From the NCBI GenBank assembly GCA_011525805.1, contig WYBR01000098.1, positions 1-64,000 of the forward strand: 64,000 bases of DNA. The letters run 5' to 3'. The DNA comes from Vicinamibacteraceae bacterium. Lineage in GTDB: Bacteria; Planctomycetota; Phycisphaerae; Phycisphaerales; UBA5793. Position 1 is the first letter of the stretch, and every line of letters starts with the position of its first letter. A model generated the notes under the pieces. That model saw only the letters and a list, made by a program, of their open reading frames with translations, was not told where the DNA came from and made no database searches. The position numbers and the translations under genes are program-made. This document shows positions 4,214-23,074 of the stretch, in pieces.

Positions 4214-5362
4214 TCAACCGCGCCGACGGTTGCGTCGGGGCGGGGCTTCAGGCTCGCCCTCCTCGTCCTCCGGGGGAGCGGCCTGCTCGAACTCAGCCGG
4301 CGGCTGCCCCGTCTCCGCGATGGTCTTGTAGAGCGAATAGAACGGCTCGTGCGGGCGGCCCTGCGCATCCCAGAGATTGGCCCATTCGTAGGTGTCCTTG
4401 AGCGCGGTGTCGGCGAAGGCGGCGTAGGCCGCGATCAGCACTTTCTCCTCGGCCATGGCGCGATAGATGTCCGCCATGGCGGCCTGGGCGCCGGCGAGAT
4501 CGGTGCGCCTGGCCGCGAACCGCGCCGGGCTCCACTCAAGGACGACGAGAGGCATGTCGCGCTTTCCGGCGGCCGCCAGGGCGCGGCGAAGCAGGCTGAG
4601 TTGGCGGCGCGCCTCTTCGCCCCCGGAGCAGTGCAGGTGAATGTCCACGGCGTCGGCATGATCAACGGACCACTGAATGGCGCGCAGCAGGCCCTGGCGG
4701 CGCAGGTTTCCCGGGCTTCCCGGCTCGGAGGCGCTTTCGAGCGGATCGAGTGCAGTGAGCCCCGGCCCGACGATCTTGACATGAGGGGCTTCCTTACGGA
4801 GGCGCTCCGCGGCGCGCGTGGCGAAGTCATACAGTCCATCGGCCTGTTCGGGCATGATCGTGCCGGGCCCGCCGGCGACTTCGTTGAAGAACTGAACCCA
4901 CAGGCGACCCGCCATGCGCTTGGACTCGGCCAAGTTCAACACCGAAACCACGGTGTCAATCGACTCACGCTCCTCCTGGGTGGTCGGCGCTGCGTCAAAT
5001 CTGATTGGTCGCTTTGTCTCCTTCGGATCGGGCCAACGGAGCGTGATGACCAGTCCGAGGTCTCGACCCTCGTACTGAGCGATCTGGCGGCGCATTCCCT
5101 CAAGTTGAAGATCCTTGCGCGCATTGAGGATCATCCGCACGCCGCTCGCCGAGATCGCGGACAGGCGGGCCGGATTGCCCAATCCATGCACCCACAACTG
5201 CGGACGACCCGCCCCAGGCTCCAGGGGCGATTGTGGATCGGGCGCCGTCGGGGGAGGCTGAGTTTCGTTGCCCCGGCGATCCGCACGAGATCCACCCCCA
5301 ATGCAGGAGACAACCACGAAGGTCGAAGCCACCCACGCCAGACTGATTCTCAAACCACCCAT
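4214..5362 (-). CDS. Secreted glycoside-hydrolase-like lipoprotein, paralogue of 15726-16886
   Basis: A 382-aa protein with a lipoprotein-like leader (hydrophobic stretch ending VVSC at Cys20), then a region consistent with a TIM-barrel glycosidase. FFNEVAGGPG (Asn160-Glu161) looks like the clan-A acid/base Asn-Glu pair, and VVLEWSP (Glu276) like the nucleophile at the end of a late strand. HLHCSGGEE and WANLWD are also conserved in the paralogue. The start was chosen because AGGAGG lies 8 nt upstream of ATG 5362; the frame continues upstream but has no support. It lies just beyond the end of the exopolysaccharide operon and may trim that polymer; the substrate is inferred, and the family was not recognised with certainty. 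Confidence 0.7.
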   Translation of the reverse strand: MGGLRISLAWVASTFVVVSCIGGGSRADRRGNETQPPPTAPDPQSPLEPGAGRPQLWVHGLGNPARLSAISASGVRMILNARKDLQLEGMRRQIAQYEGRDLGLVITLRWPDPKETKRPIRFDAAPTTQEERESIDTVVSVLNLAESKRMAGRLWVQFFNEVAGGPGTIMPEQADGLYDFATRAAERLRKEAPHVKIVGPGLTALDPLESASEPGSPGNLRRQGLLRAIQWSVDHADAVDIHLHCSGGEEARRQLSLLRRALAAAGKRDMPLVVLEWSPARFAARRTDLAGAQAAMADIYRAMAEEKVLIAAYAAFADTALKDTYEWANLWDAQGRPHEPFYSLYKTIAETGQPPAEFEQAAPPEDEEGEPEAPPRRNRRRG

Positions 5363-5698
5363 CCCGCGTTCCTCCTTCGAACTGCCACGACCGATCGAGC
5401 AGGCTATGGTCCACAAGTGACTCTTGAGGATGGTATGAACTTCGCTCGCGCGCGGCCATGACGCCCACGACGCGGATGCCGACGCGATGGGTGTCGCGGA
5501 ATCGCCGTGCTTCTGACGGCGCATGACACCCAAACGCGTTCGGGAGGTGCCGGCGTCTGGGATCCGGCGCGAACGACTCGACTGTTGGCGACTTCGCATG
5601 CGAACATGAATCATACACGGTGCGAACTCTGCACTTCGCGCAATAGCGGCCGGAATTGCGGCCCGGATGCGATGCCGCCCGCCGAATTCACCTGATCC
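5363..5698. other. Gene-free spacer upstream of the glycosidase-like gene
   Basis: 336 nt between the GT4 stop and the downstream glycosidase-like start on the same strand. It contains that gene's AGGAGG ribosome-binding site at its proximal end. No convincing sigma-70 promoter, hairpin terminator or small gene was found. Confidence 0.5.
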
Positions 5699-6952
5699 TC
5701 AATTGGGCGTTTGGGAGCCGACCCCGTCCTCGGTCATTGCGACGCTTCGGATGGCGCCGGCCGCGGCGTCTCGATAGACATCTGCCATGTGTTGCGCAAC
5801 CGCGTGATGCGTGAATTGGGATTCGAGCGATGTGCGGCCGTTCTTCCCCAGTCGAAGGGCACACTGGGGGTCAGCAATCACGCGATCGATCGCCGCAGCG
5901 AGTGCCTCGGCGTCATTGTCGGCCACGAGCAGACCTTCCCTGCCGTCCTCGACCAGGAATGGGATGCCGCCGACTCGAGTGGCGACGATGGCGCGCCGCG
6001 CCGCCATCGCCTCGAACACGAGCATCGGGCAGCACTCGCTGGTGCTGCTGATCGCGACGGCGCGACAGCGGCGCAGGTAGGGCGCGACGCCGGTGATCCA
6101 GCCGACGAAACGGACGCGATCCTCGATCGCCAGGTCGCGCGCGAGTTCGCGCAATTCGGCTTCCCGCGGCCCGGAGCCCGCGATGACGAGCCGGGCGTCG
6201 GGATGAACCGCGACCACTTGCCGCCAGGCGCGAAGGAGCATCGGGAAATTCTTGACCGGCACGAGCCGCCCCATCGCGAGGACCATCGGCGCCTCGCCGA
6301 GCCACTCGCGCAGCGCCGCGGGCAGGTCCGACGCGTCGGAGTCGATCGCGCCGGGATCGTAACCGTTGGGAAGCGTGACAAGGCCGGGTCGGCCTTCGCG
6401 CATTCCCGGCAGCAGATTGGCGAGGTGGGGGCTGACGATGACGACTCTCGCGGATCGCGGCAGCGCCCAAGCCATGGCCAGCCGCCACGCGGCGATCCTC
6501 CACGCCGGCAGGGAACCGCGCATCTCCTCGAACATGTCGGCGTGAACGGTGCGGACGACACGGGCGCCGAGCCGCCCCGCCGCGCGCCAGGCCATGAGGT
6601 GGCTCGCGGGATTGTGGCAATGAAGGATGCGCGGACGCAGCGGCGCCAGCGATCGCCACAACCGCGTCATGCGACCGATGCGGCTGACGCTGAGCACGCG
6701 GGTCTCGTAACCGGCCGCATTGAGCATGTCCGTCGCGGTCGAGCGGCTCAGCGACGCGAAGTGCATCGTCCAGCCAGCGGCTGCGAGCAGGCGGGCCCAC
6801 TGGCTGACCGCGGTAATGATCCCTCCCCCTTCCGTCCCGAGCAGCAGGTGAACGACGCTGCCCTGGAAGTTGGGCGACGGGATCGGCGCGGACGTCTGCG
6901 CGGGGGGCGCGGTCGCCGGCGTGATCGCATTCTTCGCCACGGCGTCGTTCAC
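5699..6952 (-). CDS. Family 4 glycosyltransferase
   Basis: Predicted cytosolic glycosyltransferase of the exopolysaccharide locus, 417 aa, GT-B fold. N-terminal glycine-rich loop LLLGTEGGGI, and a C-terminal nucleotide-sugar site with the E-x7-E motif (ECCPMLVFE) followed by VGGIPFLVEDGREGLLV. The start is set at GTG 6952, because it overlaps the stop of the upstream gene as GTGA, a translational-coupling arrangement; the longer upstream frame is low-complexity and out of family. Last gene of the minus-strand operon. Donor and acceptor sugars cannot be told. Confidence 0.88.
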   Translation of the reverse strand: MNDAVAKNAITPATAPPAQTSAPIPSPNFQGSVVHLLLGTEGGGIITAVSQWARLLAAAGWTMHFASLSRSTATDMLNAAGYETRVLSVSRIGRMTRLWRSLAPLRPRILHCHNPASHLMAWRAAGRLGARVVRTVHADMFEEMRGSLPAWRIAAWRLAMAWALPRSARVVIVSPHLANLLPGMREGRPGLVTLPNGYDPGAIDSDASDLPAALREWLGEAPMVLAMGRLVPVKNFPMLLRAWRQVVAVHPDARLVIAGSGPREAELRELARDLAIEDRVRFVGWITGVAPYLRRCRAVAISSTSECCPMLVFEAMAARRAIVATRVGGIPFLVEDGREGLLVADNDAEALAAAIDRVIADPQCALRLGKNGRTSLESQFTHHAVAQHMADVYRDAAAGAIRSVAMTEDGVGSQTPN

Positions 6953-7725
6953 TGGTGCCAGATGAGTTGAAGGGGAGGGAGGCCGGCGGCGGCGGCGTCT
7001 GCGGCGAGGCGCTCCACCGTCGCGCGATCCGTGCGTCCACGCGCCACCGAAATGACGAGGCGATCGAGCACGCCCGCGAGCATCGAGACGCTCCACTGCG
7101 GCCCAACGCTCGGCAGCGACCAGATGATCCGCTGGTAGCGCTCGCACAGCGCGGCGCTCAACTCGGCAAGCAGGCCGCCGTCCGCGAGGCGAGGCAGCGA
7201 GAATCGGCCGAGGCCGGCGAGCGCGTCGAGATTCGGCGCGGCGCCGGTCATGGGCTGAGGCATGGGAAGATGCTGGCCGCACTCGATGGCCGTAAGCACG
7301 TCGGCGATGCATGGAACCGTCCGCCGAATTCGGCGGCCCGTCTCACTGGAGCGCCCGCCGACTTCGATGAGGATCGTCGAGTACTCCCATCGCGCCCAGA
7401 GTCCGGCGAGTGTCACGGCCGTGTAGGACTGCCGGTTGCCCCGGCGAGCCGCGGACGTCACGCCGATCGAAAACGACTCGCCATCGTGGCCGGCGCGAAT
7501 CTCCGTGGCGATGCGCGCGAGACGGGCAAGCGCCGCGGCCGACTCATCCTCGGCGCACACCTCCCGCAGGTACGTCCCGAGCCTTCCGAGGGCCAGCGGA
7601 GGCGTCGCGGCGTCGAGACGGCGAAACAGCCAGCGCGGCCTTGAGAGGGTGAGCGATCGGCCGTCCTCGCCGCGCTCGCCGGGCGCGCGGGTCGAGCGGT
7701 TCACGATGGCGCGGGATTCGTTCAT
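6949..7725 (-). CDS. Tyrosine-kinase-like (CpsD/Wzc-type) protein without Walker A
   Basis: A 258-aa protein aligning with the cytosolic BY-kinase/ParA-like domain that normally partners polysaccharide co-polymerases: a strand followed by TSAARRGNRQSY where GEGKS would sit, then TILIEVGGR where the Walker A' LIDADLR would sit. The P-loop lysine is lost, so ATP binding is doubtful; it is probably a regulatory pseudokinase. No C-terminal Tyr cluster is seen. The start is ATG 7725, 8 nt after the upstream stop codon; the 3' end overlaps the GT4 gene by 4 nt. Paralogous to 12050-12832. The fold assignment is inference. Confidence 0.65.
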   Translation of the reverse strand: MNESRAIVNRSTRAPGERGEDGRSLTLSRPRWLFRRLDAATPPLALGRLGTYLREVCAEDESAAALARLARIATEIRAGHDGESFSIGVTSAARRGNRQSYTAVTLAGLWARWEYSTILIEVGGRSSETGRRIRRTVPCIADVLTAIECGQHLPMPQPMTGAAPNLDALAGLGRFSLPRLADGGLLAELSAALCERYQRIIWSLPSVGPQWSVSMLAGVLDRLVISVARGRTDRATVERLAADAAAAGLPPLQLIWHQ

Positions 7726-9537: not shown

Positions 9538-10329
9538 TCAGCCGACGGCCCATTCGCTTCGGACCTCGGATCGCAGATCAACGAGGCTGTAGCCGAAACT
9601 CCGCAGCCGCGAGTCGAGCGTGCGCTCCGCCCTGCGGATGCTGCGGCCGTTGAAGAACTCCCGCTTCCAGGCCTCCCATTGCGTGAAGTACGACTCGTTG
9701 ACGTCGGGTTTGACCTCGCGGCTGACTTCGACCGGATCGAGTCCCACAAATCGGAAGGTTTCCGCGAGGGCCTCTGCAGGGCGAGTGACGAGATGCTCGT
9801 AGTGAATGACCTTGGCGCGGCGGAGGTGCGGGAAATCCTGCCTCATGATCTCGTGGCAGACGGCCCAATGCTCCACGAGCCGGGAGAGCGAGGTGCGCCG
9901 CTTCCACTTCTTGGTCGCGCCCGCGACCGCGACCGGATGGCGGAGGATGAAGACGAAACAGGAGTTGGGGAACATCGCCTGGAGGAACCGTGCCTTGATG
10001 AGGTTTGGCGGCGACTTTTCGACGAGATGGGTGCGCGAAGTGTCCCAGTGGCGAGACCACTCCTCCCACAGGCGCCGGCGATTGTCGTCGGTGACGAGCG
10101 AGGAGGTCTCAGTGAGGTGCATCTCGGGCGCGAAGCCGAACTTCCCCGGCCCGCCGTAGACGCTGGCGCGTGGAAAGACGGTCTGGAGGTGTTGTCCCTC
10201 GTCCTCGGGCGCGCCGGTGTCGTGGAACCCTGAGGTAGAGGAGTGATCGGCGAGGCATCGCGCCAGGAGTGAAGTGCCGCTGCGATGCAGGCCGCCGATG
10301 AAGATGAACGAGTGGTGGCTGGGGATCAT
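9538..10329 (-). CDS. Sulfotransferase (PAPS-dependent)
   Basis: A 263-aa sulfotransferase-fold protein. The 5'-phosphosulfate loop GLHRSGTSLLA is near residue 15; a 3'-phosphate-binding region FILRHPVAVAG lies mid-protein; the sequence ends in the helical region common to the family. It probably sulfates a sugar of the exopolymer or a lipid-linked intermediate, as inferred from its place in the operon. The start at ATG 10329 is the Met just before the first strand (MIPSHHSFIFIGG); no good Shine-Dalgarno site. A much longer open frame continues upstream but only shadows the polymerase gene. Confidence 0.85.
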   Translation of the reverse strand: MIPSHHSFIFIGGLHRSGTSLLARCLADHSSTSGFHDTGAPEDEGQHLQTVFPRASVYGGPGKFGFAPEMHLTETSSLVTDDNRRRLWEEWSRHWDTSRTHLVEKSPPNLIKARFLQAMFPNSCFVFILRHPVAVAGATKKWKRRTSLSRLVEHWAVCHEIMRQDFPHLRRAKVIHYEHLVTRPAEALAETFRFVGLDPVEVSREVKPDVNESYFTQWEAWKREFFNGRSIRRAERTLDSRLRSFGYSLVDLRSEVRSEWAVG

Positions 10330-10397: not shown

Positions 10398-11945
10398 CTA
10401 CGCGCTCCCCGGCGTCGACGTCGGCGTGAACGCGGCCGCGGGACCGTAGGCCCGCATCTGCGCGAGCGTGGGCGCGACGCGATCCTCTGCGGGGATTTCG
10501 CCGCCCCGGCGCTCGCGGCGATAGACATGGTAGGCGGCGCCGCACAGTCCAAAGACAATGAAGTACAACTCGTTCTCGAGCACGTTGGAGGTGCCGGCGA
10601 AGAAGAAGAACCCGAACGTCGTGGAGGCGACCGCGGTGGCTTCGAACTTGAGCCGGCGATCCGTCGTCGCGAGCGCCGCGCTGAAGGCGCTGACGGCGGC
10701 GGTGGCGTAGAAGCCGACGTAGACGAGCACGCCCTGCAGACCGTTCTCTGCGAGCAACTGCATGAAGGCGTTGTGGACGCGGAGATAGGTCCCGGGCGCG
10801 TTGGGCAGGCGGTAGATGTTGTAGTAGATTCCCCAGCCGTTGGTCCCCACGCCGACGATGGGATGGTCGAGGAACATGTTGAGGGCCATCTGCCACATGG
10901 CCACGCGATACTCGATGGTGCGGGTCGCGGTGCCGGGGCTGGCGACGCGCTGGGCCGCCACGTCGAGGTTGGACGCGGCGAGGATGGTCAGGGCGACAAA
11001 GGCGATAATCGCGACAAGCCCCAGTTTCGCAAAGCGGTGCCGCACCGGGCCGGCCAGGAAGACGATGAGCGCGGCGACGGCGAAGCCGAGCGTGCCGCCG
11101 CGCGAACCCGTCCCGACGATGTTGAAGGCAATGACCAGCAGCGCCACCGTGAGCAGCGCCTTCTTCCACCACTCGCGATAATACAGCAGCAGGCCGAAGG
11201 CCAGCGTCCCCGGCAGCGTCTGGGCCAGGGCGTGGAACGTCGAGCCGCCCGAGGGCCCGACGATGCGAAGCGCCCCCTCGAAGGAGCCGAGCACGTTCAC
11301 CTGCGCCTCCGGGTCGGACTTGCCGAGCCGCTCGAGCATTGACTTTCCCGTGGCGACCTCGCTGAGCGTGGCGAACGCCACGAGCGTTCCGCTGATGACG
11401 ATGCAGAGCACGCAGCGGTGAAAGACCTCGCGGTCGGAGACGGCGAGGATGAGGATCGCCATGAGCGCGACGACGTTGGTGCGCCGGTTGACAAACTCGA
11501 CGCCGATCTCCGGATGCGGCATGAAGGGCATCCCGATCACGGAGACGAGCAGGTAGAGCACGCCGAGAATGATGAGCGGATCGCCCAGTTTGCGCGACCA
11601 GCCCCTGAGTTGATCCGCCAGAATCGCCGCCGTCAGAAAAACGATGGTGAGCGCGATGGCGATCTTTGTCCCGCTGATTCGGCCGCCCTCGCCGAAGGTC
11701 TGCATCCGGTCCCAGAGGACCAGCAGCATGATGAGATAGATGCCCATCCGAAAGTCGAGCCCGAGCACGACGATCGACCCGATGGTTCCGATGATCGCGG
11801 CCGTGAGCACGACCGGAAAGACGGGGCTGGAGGAACGGCCGATGAGCACGCCGAGGACGAACATGAGCCCGAAGATGGGAACGAACAGCAGGGCGAAGAA
11901 CGCCCATTGCCGCCAGTTCTGTCCCGGTGTGGTCGTGGTGAGCAT
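10398..11945 (-). CDS. O-antigen ligase/polymerase (Wzy/WaaL-like) membrane protein
   Basis: A 515-aa polytopic inner-membrane protein with about a dozen hydrophobic segments. The Wzy_C-type signature lies in the large periplasmic loop: VGVGTNGWG, then the HNAFMQLLAENGLQG block, typical of O-antigen ligases and polymerases. It polymerises or transfers lipid-linked repeat units at the periplasmic face. Start ATG 11945 gives MLTTTTPG just before the first membrane segment; an in-frame ATG at 11999 would add 18 Arg-rich residues. Operon with the co-polymerase and kinase-like genes on either side. Confidence 0.88.
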   Translation of the reverse strand: MLTTTTPGQNWRQWAFFALLFVPIFGLMFVLGVLIGRSSSPVFPVVLTAAIIGTIGSIVVLGLDFRMGIYLIMLLVLWDRMQTFGEGGRISGTKIAIALTIVFLTAAILADQLRGWSRKLGDPLIILGVLYLLVSVIGMPFMPHPEIGVEFVNRRTNVVALMAILILAVSDREVFHRCVLCIVISGTLVAFATLSEVATGKSMLERLGKSDPEAQVNVLGSFEGALRIVGPSGGSTFHALAQTLPGTLAFGLLLYYREWWKKALLTVALLVIAFNIVGTGSRGGTLGFAVAALIVFLAGPVRHRFAKLGLVAIIAFVALTILAASNLDVAAQRVASPGTATRTIEYRVAMWQMALNMFLDHPIVGVGTNGWGIYYNIYRLPNAPGTYLRVHNAFMQLLAENGLQGVLVYVGFYATAAVSAFSAALATTDRRLKFEATAVASTTFGFFFFAGTSNVLENELYFIVFGLCGAAYHVYRRERRGGEIPAEDRVAPTLAQMRAYGPAAAFTPTSTPGSA

Positions 11946-12049: not shown

Positions 12050-12832
12050 CTAGTCGAACCAGATCACGTCAATCGGCCTGAGGCCCGACCGGAGTGCCTG
12101 CTCGCCGACCTCGCGCACCGGTCCGCCGCGCGTCGATCCTCGCACCAGCGCGAGCACGAGACGGTCGCAACAGCCGCCCAGCGCGACGAACGGGAAGCCG
12201 GTGGCGATGCGAGGCGCGGCGATGACAACCCGGTCGTGGTTCTTCTTGAGGCCTTCCACGAGACTCGCCAAGCGACCCGTGGAGATGAGGCCGAGGACAT
12301 CCGCCTTGCCCGCGGCGATGGCGCCCGCGCGCGGCAGGCTGCTGTGCAGGCGGGCGATGTCCGTAAGCGGGCGCCCGGAGGCGGCGGCATCACACGCGGC
12401 CGAGAGATCGGGCGATGACGCCGTCAGCGCACCGGAGAGCGCCTTGGGTCCGCTCGCGAGGTCGATGAGAACCGTCGACCGGCCCCAGCGCCCCCAGAGG
12501 GCGGCGAGGGCCGCCGCCGTCTGGCCGATCTTCTCATCCGCTTCGACCGCGCTGATCGCGACGGCAACGCTGCCGTTTCGCCCCGCGGTTTCGCACGAGG
12601 TCGCCAGTTCGCCGATCGCCATGGCGATGCGGGCGTTGGCGGGCGCGGACAGGAGTTGCGTGAGGAACGAGCCCACAGGATGGGACGTGTTCAGCGATGC
12701 GTTGGAGCCGGATGAACCGGCGCCGGACGCGGACGGAATGGCTGCGGCTTGGGTGGTCATGTCGGGTGCTCGCACTCGGGTCTTGGTTTCGACCGGCGGC
12801 GGGGACCGGGGCGCCCGCGGCCGCTGATTCAT
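12050..12832 (-). CDS. Second CpsD-like protein without Walker A
   Basis: A 260-aa paralogue of 6949-7725 and again directly downstream of a co-polymerase gene (12-nt gap). The strand/P-loop region reads VAISAVEADEKIGQTAA, without GKS/T, followed by STVLIDLASG for Walker A' and a C-terminal CDRLVLALVRG strand matching CDRLVISVARG-like text in the paralogue. The pairing with a co-polymerase points to the BY-kinase family; loss of the lysine points to a non-catalytic partner. The start is uncertain: ATG 12832 is closest to the upstream stop, ATG 12760 is an alternative. Confidence 0.6.
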   Translation of the reverse strand: MNQRPRAPRSPPPVETKTRVRAPDMTTQAAAIPSASGAGSSGSNASLNTSHPVGSFLTQLLSAPANARIAMAIGELATSCETAGRNGSVAVAISAVEADEKIGQTAAALAALWGRWGRSTVLIDLASGPKALSGALTASSPDLSAACDAAASGRPLTDIARLHSSLPRAGAIAAGKADVLGLISTGRLASLVEGLKKNHDRVVIAAPRIATGFPFVALGGCCDRLVLALVRGSTRGGPVREVGEQALRSGLRPIDVIWFD

Positions 12833-15725: not shown

Positions 15726-16886
15726 ATGGCTCCGAGAACAAACCAACGTGCGGGCGCGACTTCACTGATGCTCGCATCGACCCTCGCCATCTTCGGGCAC
15801 GCAAGTTCGGTGTGCTGCGCTTCGCATTCCGGGGAGGAAGCGCTCATCGCGTCCTTGACCCAAGAACCTGCACATCGAACCGAGCTATGGATTCACGGGC
15901 TGGGGAATGCGAAGCGCATGAGCGAAGTCTCGGCTGCGGGGCTCCGCACCATTGTGGACTTGCGCCAGGACCTCAAACTGGAGAGCATTCGGCGCCACAT
16001 GCGCACGTACTCAGGTCAGCAACTCGGTCTCGTCTATACGCTGCGCTGGGCGGATCCCGAGGACAAAGGCCGCCCCGTGCGACTGGACCGAACGCCGACC
16101 GCGGAGGAAGAGCGACGCGCCCTGGATACGCTTGCGCAGTTGATGAACACACCAGAGTCCCGGCAGTTGGCAGGCCGCATCTGGGTGCAGTTCTACAACG
16201 AGGTGGCCGGCGGACCCGGCACGATCGAGCCCGCGGACGCCGATGCGCTCTATGACTTCGCAACCAGAGCCGCTCTTCGCCTGCGTGCGGAAGCCCCGCA
16301 CATCCGCATCATCGGACCGGCGCTCACGGGGCTGTCCGCGCTCGAAGAGAATCACTCTCCCGGCTCGGTCGGGGAGTATCGGCGCGACGGCTTGCTTCGC
16401 GCCATTCGATGGTCGATCGCCAATGCCGATGCGGTCGACCTTCATCTGCATTGCGCCGGAGGTGAGGACGCGGCCGAGCAACTCGCCAGGCTGCGGCGCG
16501 CGCTTCACCGCGAAGGACGGCCCGATCTTACCGTGCACTCACTGGAGTGGAGTGCGGCTCGATTCCCCGCCGGTTCGGCGGATCTGAGCGGCGCGCAGCA
16601 GGCCATCAGCGACATCTTCGAGGCGATGTGTGCTGCCCGCGTGGGCATCGGCGCCTACTCCTCATTCCCCAAAGGGCACCTCAAGGACATGTACACATGG
16701 TCCTATCTGTGGGATCAGAAGGGCCAACCTCATGAACCTTTCTTCTCGCATCTCAAGTCGATCGCGGGGCAGAACGCTCCAGCCGCGCAATCTCAAGCGC
16801 GCGGCGGAGTGAGCACGGACGCTCCTGCCGCCCGAAGCAAGTCAGGCACGAGAGCCACCCTTGTCAAACGCAAGAAGCGCCGCTGA
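15726..16886 (+). CDS. Secreted glycoside-hydrolase-like protein, paralogue of 4214-5362
   Basis: A 386-aa protein with an N-terminal hydrophobic leader ending in a Cys pair (SVCCAS), probably exported. It shares the whole barrel region with the paralogue at the other end of the polysaccharide locus: LWIHGLGNAKR, TLRWADPE, QFYNEVAGGPGT (Asn158-Glu159, candidate acid/base), DLHLHCAGGED and HSLEWSAARF (Glu274, candidate nucleophile). The C-terminus ends in a basic Lys/Arg tail. GGGAGG about 7 nt upstream supports the start. Exopolymer processing is inferred only from location. Confidence 0.7.
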   Translation: MAPRTNQRAGATSLMLASTLAIFGHASSVCCASHSGEEALIASLTQEPAHRTELWIHGLGNAKRMSEVSAAGLRTIVDLRQDLKLESIRRHMRTYSGQQLGLVYTLRWADPEDKGRPVRLDRTPTAEEERRALDTLAQLMNTPESRQLAGRIWVQFYNEVAGGPGTIEPADADALYDFATRAALRLRAEAPHIRIIGPALTGLSALEENHSPGSVGEYRRDGLLRAIRWSIANADAVDLHLHCAGGEDAAEQLARLRRALHREGRPDLTVHSLEWSAARFPAGSADLSGAQQAISDIFEAMCAARVGIGAYSSFPKGHLKDMYTWSYLWDQKGQPHEPFFSHLKSIAGQNAPAAQSQARGGVSTDAPAARSKSGTRATLVKRKKRR

Positions 16887-22489: not shown

Positions 22490-23074
22490 ATGAACGAGCG
22501 GTCTCGCCGAACTGTCCATCGCCGCCGCCTCCGCCGCATCAACGTGCCCGGCACCGCTCGATATCTGACCTACTCGTGCTTTCAGAATCGCCCCCTTCTT
22601 CGCGCTTCGCGCACCTGTGCATGGCTCGCCAATGCCATCAACGGTGCGAGAGAGAAGTATGGGTTCCGAGTGTGGGCGTACGTGTTCATGCCCACGCACG
22701 TGCATCTGCTCCTGCGGCCTGACGACAATTCGCCGGACGTCGGGCCGATCCTTGGATCGACCAAACTCTCCGTGGCGAGGCGGGCAATCCGCTGGGTGAA
22801 GGTCAACGCACCGCACTCGCTCGGTCCCTTCGTTGATCGGTCGCCTTCGGGCAAGGTAACGCACCGCTTCTGGCAGCGCGGCGCGGGTTATGACCGGAGT
22901 CTCATCACGCCCGCCCACATCTGGGAGGCAATCGACTACATCCATTACAACCCGGTTGCAGAGGGATTGTGCGATTTTCCGCATGTGTGGTACTGGTCAA
23001 GTGCCGCCTTTCATCGCGACGGCACGCCCGGCCCCGTGGCATTGGATCTTACAGAGCTTCCGGCAAGACACTGA
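22490..23074 (+). CDS. REP-associated tyrosine transposase (RAYT, Y1/HUH type)
   Basis: A 194-aa single-strand DNA transposase-like nuclease of the IS200/IS605-related RAYT group. The HUH metal motif is in VFMPTHVHLLL (His-Val-His), and the family tail YIHYNPVAEGLC contains the candidate catalytic tyrosines. RAYTs are domesticated, usually single-copy, and are thought to mobilise the REP palindromes around them; here REP-like repeats lie on both sides (22334-22437 and 23121-23307). No left or right IS ends or target duplications were recognised. Complete and apparently intact. Confidence 0.9.
   Translation: MNERSRRTVHRRRLRRINVPGTARYLTYSCFQNRPLLRASRTCAWLANAINGAREKYGFRVWAYVFMPTHVHLLLRPDDNSPDVGPILGSTKLSVARRAIRWVKVNAPHSLGPFVDRSPSGKVTHRFWQRGAGYDRSLITPAHIWEAIDYIHYNPVAEGLCDFPHVWYWSSAAFHRDGTPGPVALDLTELPARH

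Follow-up and report, generated by a model that had tools for sequence, protein, structure and literature searches.

Two putative stand-alone BY pseudokinases, each beside a kinase-less co-polymerase, flank a Wzy-type polymerase gene in a planctomycete

In the window analysed here, a stretch of 64,000 nucleotides of planctomycete DNA, the products of two genes, P0001 and P0002, appear to be paralogous stand-alone BY pseudokinases, the cytoplasmic halves of split PCP-2 co-polymerases, which would take part in polymer assembly without tyrosine phosphorylation. We give this reading a probability of about 0.7. Models of chain-length control in capsules and exopolysaccharides centre on phosphorylation cycles of the PCP-2 kinase half, and our results suggest that the capsule-type polymers of these bacteria are controlled without tyrosine phosphorylation.

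Both genes lie on the minus strand, where their frames are open, and the plus-strand frames carry stops (Table 1). P0002 probably begins at 12760, the start used by several orthologs. The earlier note had placed both proteins after a co-polymerase gene, and this placement, with its coordinates, is right: each lies 8-12 bases downstream of its own co-polymerase gene, P0003 for P0001 and P0004 for P0002, whose products have two transmembrane (TM) segments, 33-41 residues past the second, and no kinase domain. The P0004 profile matches the PslE co-polymerase 9v75 (E 6.7e-7), and P0004 reaches the chain-length determinant family TIGR03007 at E 1.2e-5, far below the cut-off. P0003 is weakly similar to P0004 and has a weak EpsF chain-length match (E 0.0014); it has no PDB match, and its family matches are weak chain-length-determinant ones, none convincing. 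The Wzy-type gene and a sulfotransferase gene lie between the two pairs, and the GT4 glycosyltransferase gene also adjoins P0001 orthologs in relatives.

Table 1. Features of the two-pair locus, with positions in the window
Feature	Position	Strand	Basis
PCP-2 co-polymerase without kinase domain, P0004	12845..14488	-	hydropathy: TM 37-64 and 484-514; ~33 cytoplasmic C-terminal residues
Putative stand-alone BY pseudokinase, P0002	12050..12832 (likely start 12760)	-	model, VIA Z, lost motifs
Former Walker A of P0002, residues 97-105 EADEKIGQT	12518..12544	-	alignment, ortholog motif check
Wzy-type polymerase / O-antigen ligase family	10398..11942	-	PF04932, E 2.3e-23
Sulfotransferase family protein	9538..10329	-	PF13469, E 3e-22
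Second PCP-2 co-polymerase without kinase domain, P0003	7734..9362	-	hydropathy: TM 44-67 and ~474-501; ~41 cytoplasmic C-terminal residues
Putative stand-alone BY pseudokinase, P0001	6949..7725	-	model, VIA Z, profile match to VpsO
Former Walker A of P0001, residues 94-100 RRGNRQS	7426..7446	-	HMMER alignment, ortholog motif check
GT4-type glycosyltransferase downstream of P0001	5699..6952	-	PF13692, E 3.2e-36

AlphaFold2 models built from ten-sequence alignments (pLDDT 78.8 and pTM 0.77 for P0002; 79.2 and 0.79 for P0001) show a BY-kinase fold for both proteins, in agreement with the BY-kinase/CpsD relationship that had been claimed and not with a fold other than that of a P-loop kinase. In Foldseek searches of the PDB the best match of P0002 was Wzc (3la6_I, E 1.8e-8) and that of P0001 was CapA2B2 (4jmp, E 6.6e-7), and VIA-align superposed P0002 on the same Wzc chain with Z 18.5 (204 residues, 3.2 A, 20% identity) and P0001 on CapA1B1 (4jlv) with Z 19.2 (199 residues, 3.0 A, 19% identity). 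The first 19 entries listed for each protein are BY-kinases. The best entries of another kind are ParA/MinD proteins, at Z 12.7 for P0002 and 13.0 for P0001; a ParA/MinD/Soj ATPase was rejected, given Z values of 12-13 versus 18-19 for BY-kinases and a GK[ST] P-loop (KGGxGK[ST]) in none of the 12 orthologs of the two proteins.

Sequence comparisons point the same way. Pfam yielded no family for either protein and NCBIfam one sub-threshold family for P0002 only; the curated cut-off of TIGR01007 was not reached (12.4 bits for P0002 against 108.05; no match for P0001), and 5 of the 12 orthologs matched that family at E <= 0.1, the best at 1.7e-8. Single-sequence phmmer matches in the PDB were weak (VpsO, E 0.08-0.19), and profiles settled the assignment: those of the P0001 and P0002 orthologs match VpsO at E 3.4e-6 and 5.2e-5, and hhalign relates the two families to lysine-bearing BY-kinases at 97.6% and 96.6%, respectively. 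P0001 and P0002 are themselves paralogs, with 25% identity over 210 residues (E 4e-17) and 99.5% in an hhalign profile comparison.

The loss of kinase function in both proteins is well supported by their sequence motifs. As the earlier note had it, GKS/T of Walker A is replaced in both, the Asp-rich Walker A' segment is altered and there is no Tyr tail, and each of these points extends to the orthologs. HMMER aligns RGNRQS of P0001 to PGEGKT of VpsO, with Gln99 in place of the lysine. In P0002 the hhalign alignment sets Ile102 against the lysine and Lys101 against the glycine before it, and the register used previously puts Gln104 at the lysine; since no ortholog of either protein (0 of 12) has an intact [AG]xxxxGK[ST] P-loop and all have lost parts of Walker A' and B, the choice of register is immaterial to the conclusion. 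Walker A' reads IDLASG, IEVGG or variants, and its second Asp is missing from all 12, matching neither DxD nor ExD. A further loss, on which the earlier note was silent, is that of the Walker B Asp, which is Ala in P0002, Ser in P0001, and Ala, Val or Ser in every ortholog. Beyond lacking tyrosines, the tail is missing altogether: each protein finishes with its last beta-strand (IWFD, IWHQ), and the last 60 residues hold no Tyr in either protein and 0-1 in the orthologs. Inspection by eye showed no EX2RX2R ring motif in either protein, and a Wzc-like ring is therefore uncertain.

Both pseudokinase genes are under purifying selection. The two PCP-pseudokinase pairs stand on either side of the Wzy gene, in the same order, in each of the six family genomes searched: this one, four others of the genus and one further member of the family. 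Pairwise dN/dS within the genus (10 pairs each) was 0.09-0.20 for P0002 and 0.05-0.34 for P0001, well below 1 in all ten comparisons per gene and similar to the values of the neighbouring genes, 0.17-0.35 for P0004, 0.18-0.41 for P0003 and 0.08-0.25 for Wzy, although all these values are rough, with many dS above 1 and near saturation. Since the pair is kept in five other genomes at such ratios, the lost motifs are not due to chance. Outside the family the two-pair arrangement was not found in the genomes searched, which gave weak P0002 matches only. A P0002 search of 61 genomes at E <= 0.01 hit 16, the six of the family and ten with weak matches (best 2.4e-5), of which L008-L011 prove to be ordinary Wzc proteins with the lysine, while L014 and L016 overlap lysine-bearing stand-alone kinases, the others being L012, L013, L015 and L017. 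The P0004 profile matched exactly the six family genomes among 101, and the P0002-family profile, in 298 genomes of the class, found three family genomes and three weak matches (3.7e-5 to 7.3e-5).

These data bear on several other explanations. That the pseudokinase genes are decaying remnants without function is very improbable: the catalytic residues are gone, but the frames are intact, dN/dS is well below 1 in five genus members, gene order is kept in all six genomes, and P0002 has gained invariant residues of its own (LW.RW, Pro207, Asp223, Trp258). It is unlikely, though clearly less so, that a nucleotide is still bound through a rebuilt site and serves as a bound/unbound switch without phosphotransfer. 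Such a site could draw on the basic residue immediately preceding that of the lysine (Lys/Arg101 in 6 of 6 P0002 orthologs), which makes weak phosphate binding conceivable, on the glycine kept in P0001 orthologs (RGN[RG] or PGN) and on the first Walker A' Asp, retained in 5 of 6 P0002 orthologs. Against it, the Walker B Asp is lost and GxxxxGK[ST] absent throughout the 12 orthologs, and the position of the lysine is freely variable, occupied by Q, H or I in the P0001 family and by I, A or M in the P0002 family. A displaced lysine as the mark of an intact site was rejected, as glycines, Ser/Thr and Walker B do not accompany it, and no displaced but intact nucleotide site was found in the 12 orthologs.

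Alternatively, the pseudokinases might assemble into mixed rings together with an active BY-kinase whose gene lies elsewhere in the genome; we consider this slightly less probable than a rebuilt site. This genome does encode a full-length lysine-bearing Wzc-like protein, C17, with a Tyr-less tail, and a contig-end fragment, C73, with a Tyr-rich one. However, G005 has both pairs, yet its sole full-length BY-kinase-like protein is a lysine-less Wzc, and in the main text of PMC12004946 the authors of the EcpK study argue against a need for active kinases in Myxococcus.

Our preferred reading is of pseudokinases that act without phosphorylation, and we propose, by analogy with EcpK/EpsV (PMC12004946), that they would work by scaffolding. 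The membrane half, P0003 or P0004, would dock through its short cytoplasmic tail on its own pseudokinase, and each pair would assist the Wzy polymerase, whose gene lies between the two, in building the chain and passing it on. The pseudokinases would bind no nucleotide, chain length and assembly would be controlled by binding and unbinding rather than by tyrosine phosphorylation, and both pairs would serve one polymer. The earlier note's interpretation, control without phosphorylation or by scaffolding, is probably right.

The locus is a doubled case of a mechanism already known elsewhere. Stand-alone BY pseudokinases with a kinase-less PCP-2 partner are described in the main text of PMC12004946 for EcpK/EpsV of Myxococcus xanthus and HfsB/HfsA of Caulobacter crescentus, with a scaffold role proposed, deletion, two-hybrid and modelling data for EcpK/EpsV, a third PCP-2 subfamily proposed and fused pseudokinase variants mentioned. 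To judge by that published description, P0001 and P0002 carry the sequence and structure features of the EcpK/HfsB type: they share with EcpK the BY-kinase fold, the absence of Walker A, A' and B and of a Tyr tail, and the kinase-less PCP-2 partner, and with HfsB/HfsA the same stand-alone arrangement. Unlike EcpK/EpsV, the locus, known here from sequence and models, has two paralogous pairs flanking one Wzy gene, whereas HfsB/HfsA is a single pair of the holdfast pathway; EcpK ends in a basic C-terminal helix and the HfsB/HfsA system also has a C-terminal helix (PMC12004946, as far as its main text describes them), while P0001 and P0002 have nothing beyond the last strand. The same split arrangement is found in CapA/CapB of Staphylococcus aureus (PCP-2b), the system whose structures 4jlv and 4jmp P0001 matches best, but CapB is an active BY-kinase with intact Walker motifs and a Tyr tail. 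The kinase domain that P0002 matches best, 3la6, belongs to Wzc of Escherichia coli (PCP-2a), a fused, active autokinase.

Catalytic loss in this lineage is wider than the two genes. The survey of planctomycete loci suggested by the earlier note found a milder form of it in the fused Wzc of 78 of 81 genomes sampled, one domain per genome, within an order that we take to be Phycisphaerales. The survey used TIGR01007 matches from 101 relatives and comprised 113 domains, three from the same genome as the window, 30 from loci and 80 more, which were taken roughly by score, so that the sample favours canonical-looking proteins. Among 112 complete domains, 34 have the Walker A lysine and 78 do not, the replacements being Thr (28), Ala (22), Val (14), Ser (8), Cys (3) and Gly (3). 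The second Walker A' Asp is Asn in all 78 (DxD to DxN) and Asp in all 34 lysine-bearing domains, and the Walker B Asp is retained in all 78. The lysine-less domains belong to Wzc-like open frames of ~730-940 residues, of which they make up the kinase portion (C77, with GSGATT, in the same genome as P0001 and P0002); no displaced lysine is common to them, a lysine lying within 4 columns of the motif in 3 of 78. Most of them show the ring motif as EX2RX2R (56) or EX2R (21), the two scored as having none including the truncated L034, and a Gly-Tyr near the C-terminal end in 20 of 20 aligned. They resemble the fused PCP-2 pseudokinases (SMc01795 and others) that the main text of PMC12004946 mentions after Cuthbertson et al. 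in being fused and lacking catalytic residues; they differ in their distribution, a single copy in each genome throughout an order, and in their fixed DxN and retained Walker B.

Among the lysine-bearing proteins, other departures were seen. The Wzc-like L033 (C17:29236-29772, same genome) has intact Walker motifs, a Tyr-less tail and no EX2RX2R, with similar proteins in G295, G307, G011, G015 and G059; to judge by its sequence, a tail of this kind would be a separate way to lose the phosphorylation cycle. Stand-alone CpsD-like kinases of the order (L103, L119, L123 and others) have Glu for the first Walker A' Asp (ExD) and mostly very Tyr-rich tails, and ExD occurs in 25 of the 34 lysine-bearing domains.

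In the fused Wzc, the change from DxD to DxN in Walker A' seems to have preceded the loss of the lysine. When the lysine-less profile was run against 392 genomes of the phylum, 30 of 31 same-order genomes (at least 198.8 bits) outranked all those outside the order (at most 191.5), and all 30 top matches were lysine-less with Asn. A further 39 domains comprised 29 with lysine and Asp, among them that of G017, the sole same-order genome without a lysine-less match, nine with lysine and Asn, and one lysine-less with Asn. These ten Asn domains come from nine genomes of the same class outside the order, and the presence there, in sister orders, of lysine together with Asn points to DxN first and lysine loss second.

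Trees were also used to relate this history to that of P0001 and P0002. Their families form one clade and the lysine-less Wzc another (support 100/100 and 100/99). In a quick tree of 127 domains the P0001/P0002 families grouped next to the clade of lysine-bearing, Tyr-less Wzc proteins (SH-aLRT 99), a placement that was not recovered in a careful tree of 67 rows. Since AU tests rejected a grouping with neither that clade (p 0.33) nor the lysine-less one (p 0.30), and the P0001/P0002 branch is very long (2.4-2.8), we do not claim that the two losses were independent; hhalign and BLAST favour lysine-bearing relatives.

Some genomes may have no active BY-kinase at all. In eight relatives chosen for a single TIGR01007 match at 1e-8 (G005, G007, G012, G016, G035, G043, G289, G292), the sole full-length BY-kinase-like protein at E <= 1e-5 is the lysine-less Wzc. 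The other matches read have ParA- or Mrp-type P-loops, with a P0001 homolog also in G005 (E 1.6e-8), and among the matches read, which exclude six weaker ones (1e-6 to 7e-6), we found no lysine-bearing BY-kinase in the eight. An OPX/Wza gene lies ~10 kb from the lysine-less Wzc in all eight genomes and is the only one in seven; G005 has a second, ~2 kb from the first PCP gene of its pseudokinase operon. We had expected genomes without a lysine-bearing kinase to lack LMW tyrosine phosphatases as well, and this expectation failed, with LMWPc proteins in 21 of 21 genomes. Because the LMW phosphatase family has other roles, their presence is weak evidence, though it speaks against a complete loss of phosphorylation. 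One such gene (G016:C17:213904-214332) lies ~2.6 kb from the lysine-less Wzc in G016, in which no lysine-bearing BY-kinase was detected.

A broader reading, which we advance tentatively and at slightly worse than even odds, is that this Phycisphaerales-type order gave up phosphorylation control of Wzx/Wzy export, with DxN and then lysine loss in the fused Wzc, several genomes left without a lysine-bearing BY-kinase, and one family carrying two degenerate pairs around one Wzy, possibly as a mixed co-polymerase. What is new here is the doubled PCP-pseudokinase arrangement around one Wzy in planctomycetes, and the order-wide, fused lysine-less Wzc with a surviving intermediate that has lysine and DxN. 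The main text of PMC12004946 names no planctomycete, and a literature search that covered few subscription papers found no paper on BY-kinase loss in this group. The lineage-wide pattern makes the locus worth following. Catalytic loss with living intermediates makes it testable which part of the kinase half matters: the ring scaffold, the nucleotide or the tail. 'Tyrosine autokinase' annotations in this order, where some lysine-less proteins score above the TIGR01007 cut-off, are likely wrong about activity.

Several features of the surroundings were also noted. Among the 19-kb loci of five relatives, a homolog of the sulfotransferase within the operon is present in L024 only, so that sulfation of the polymer may be limited to certain species. 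The operon is flanked by genes for two related proteins, at 4214-5614 (-) and 15726-16886 (+), which have no Pfam match and have homologs beside the relatives' operons. Farther along the window, 22490-23074 (+) encodes a candidate REP-associated (Y1-type) transposase, recognized by eye.
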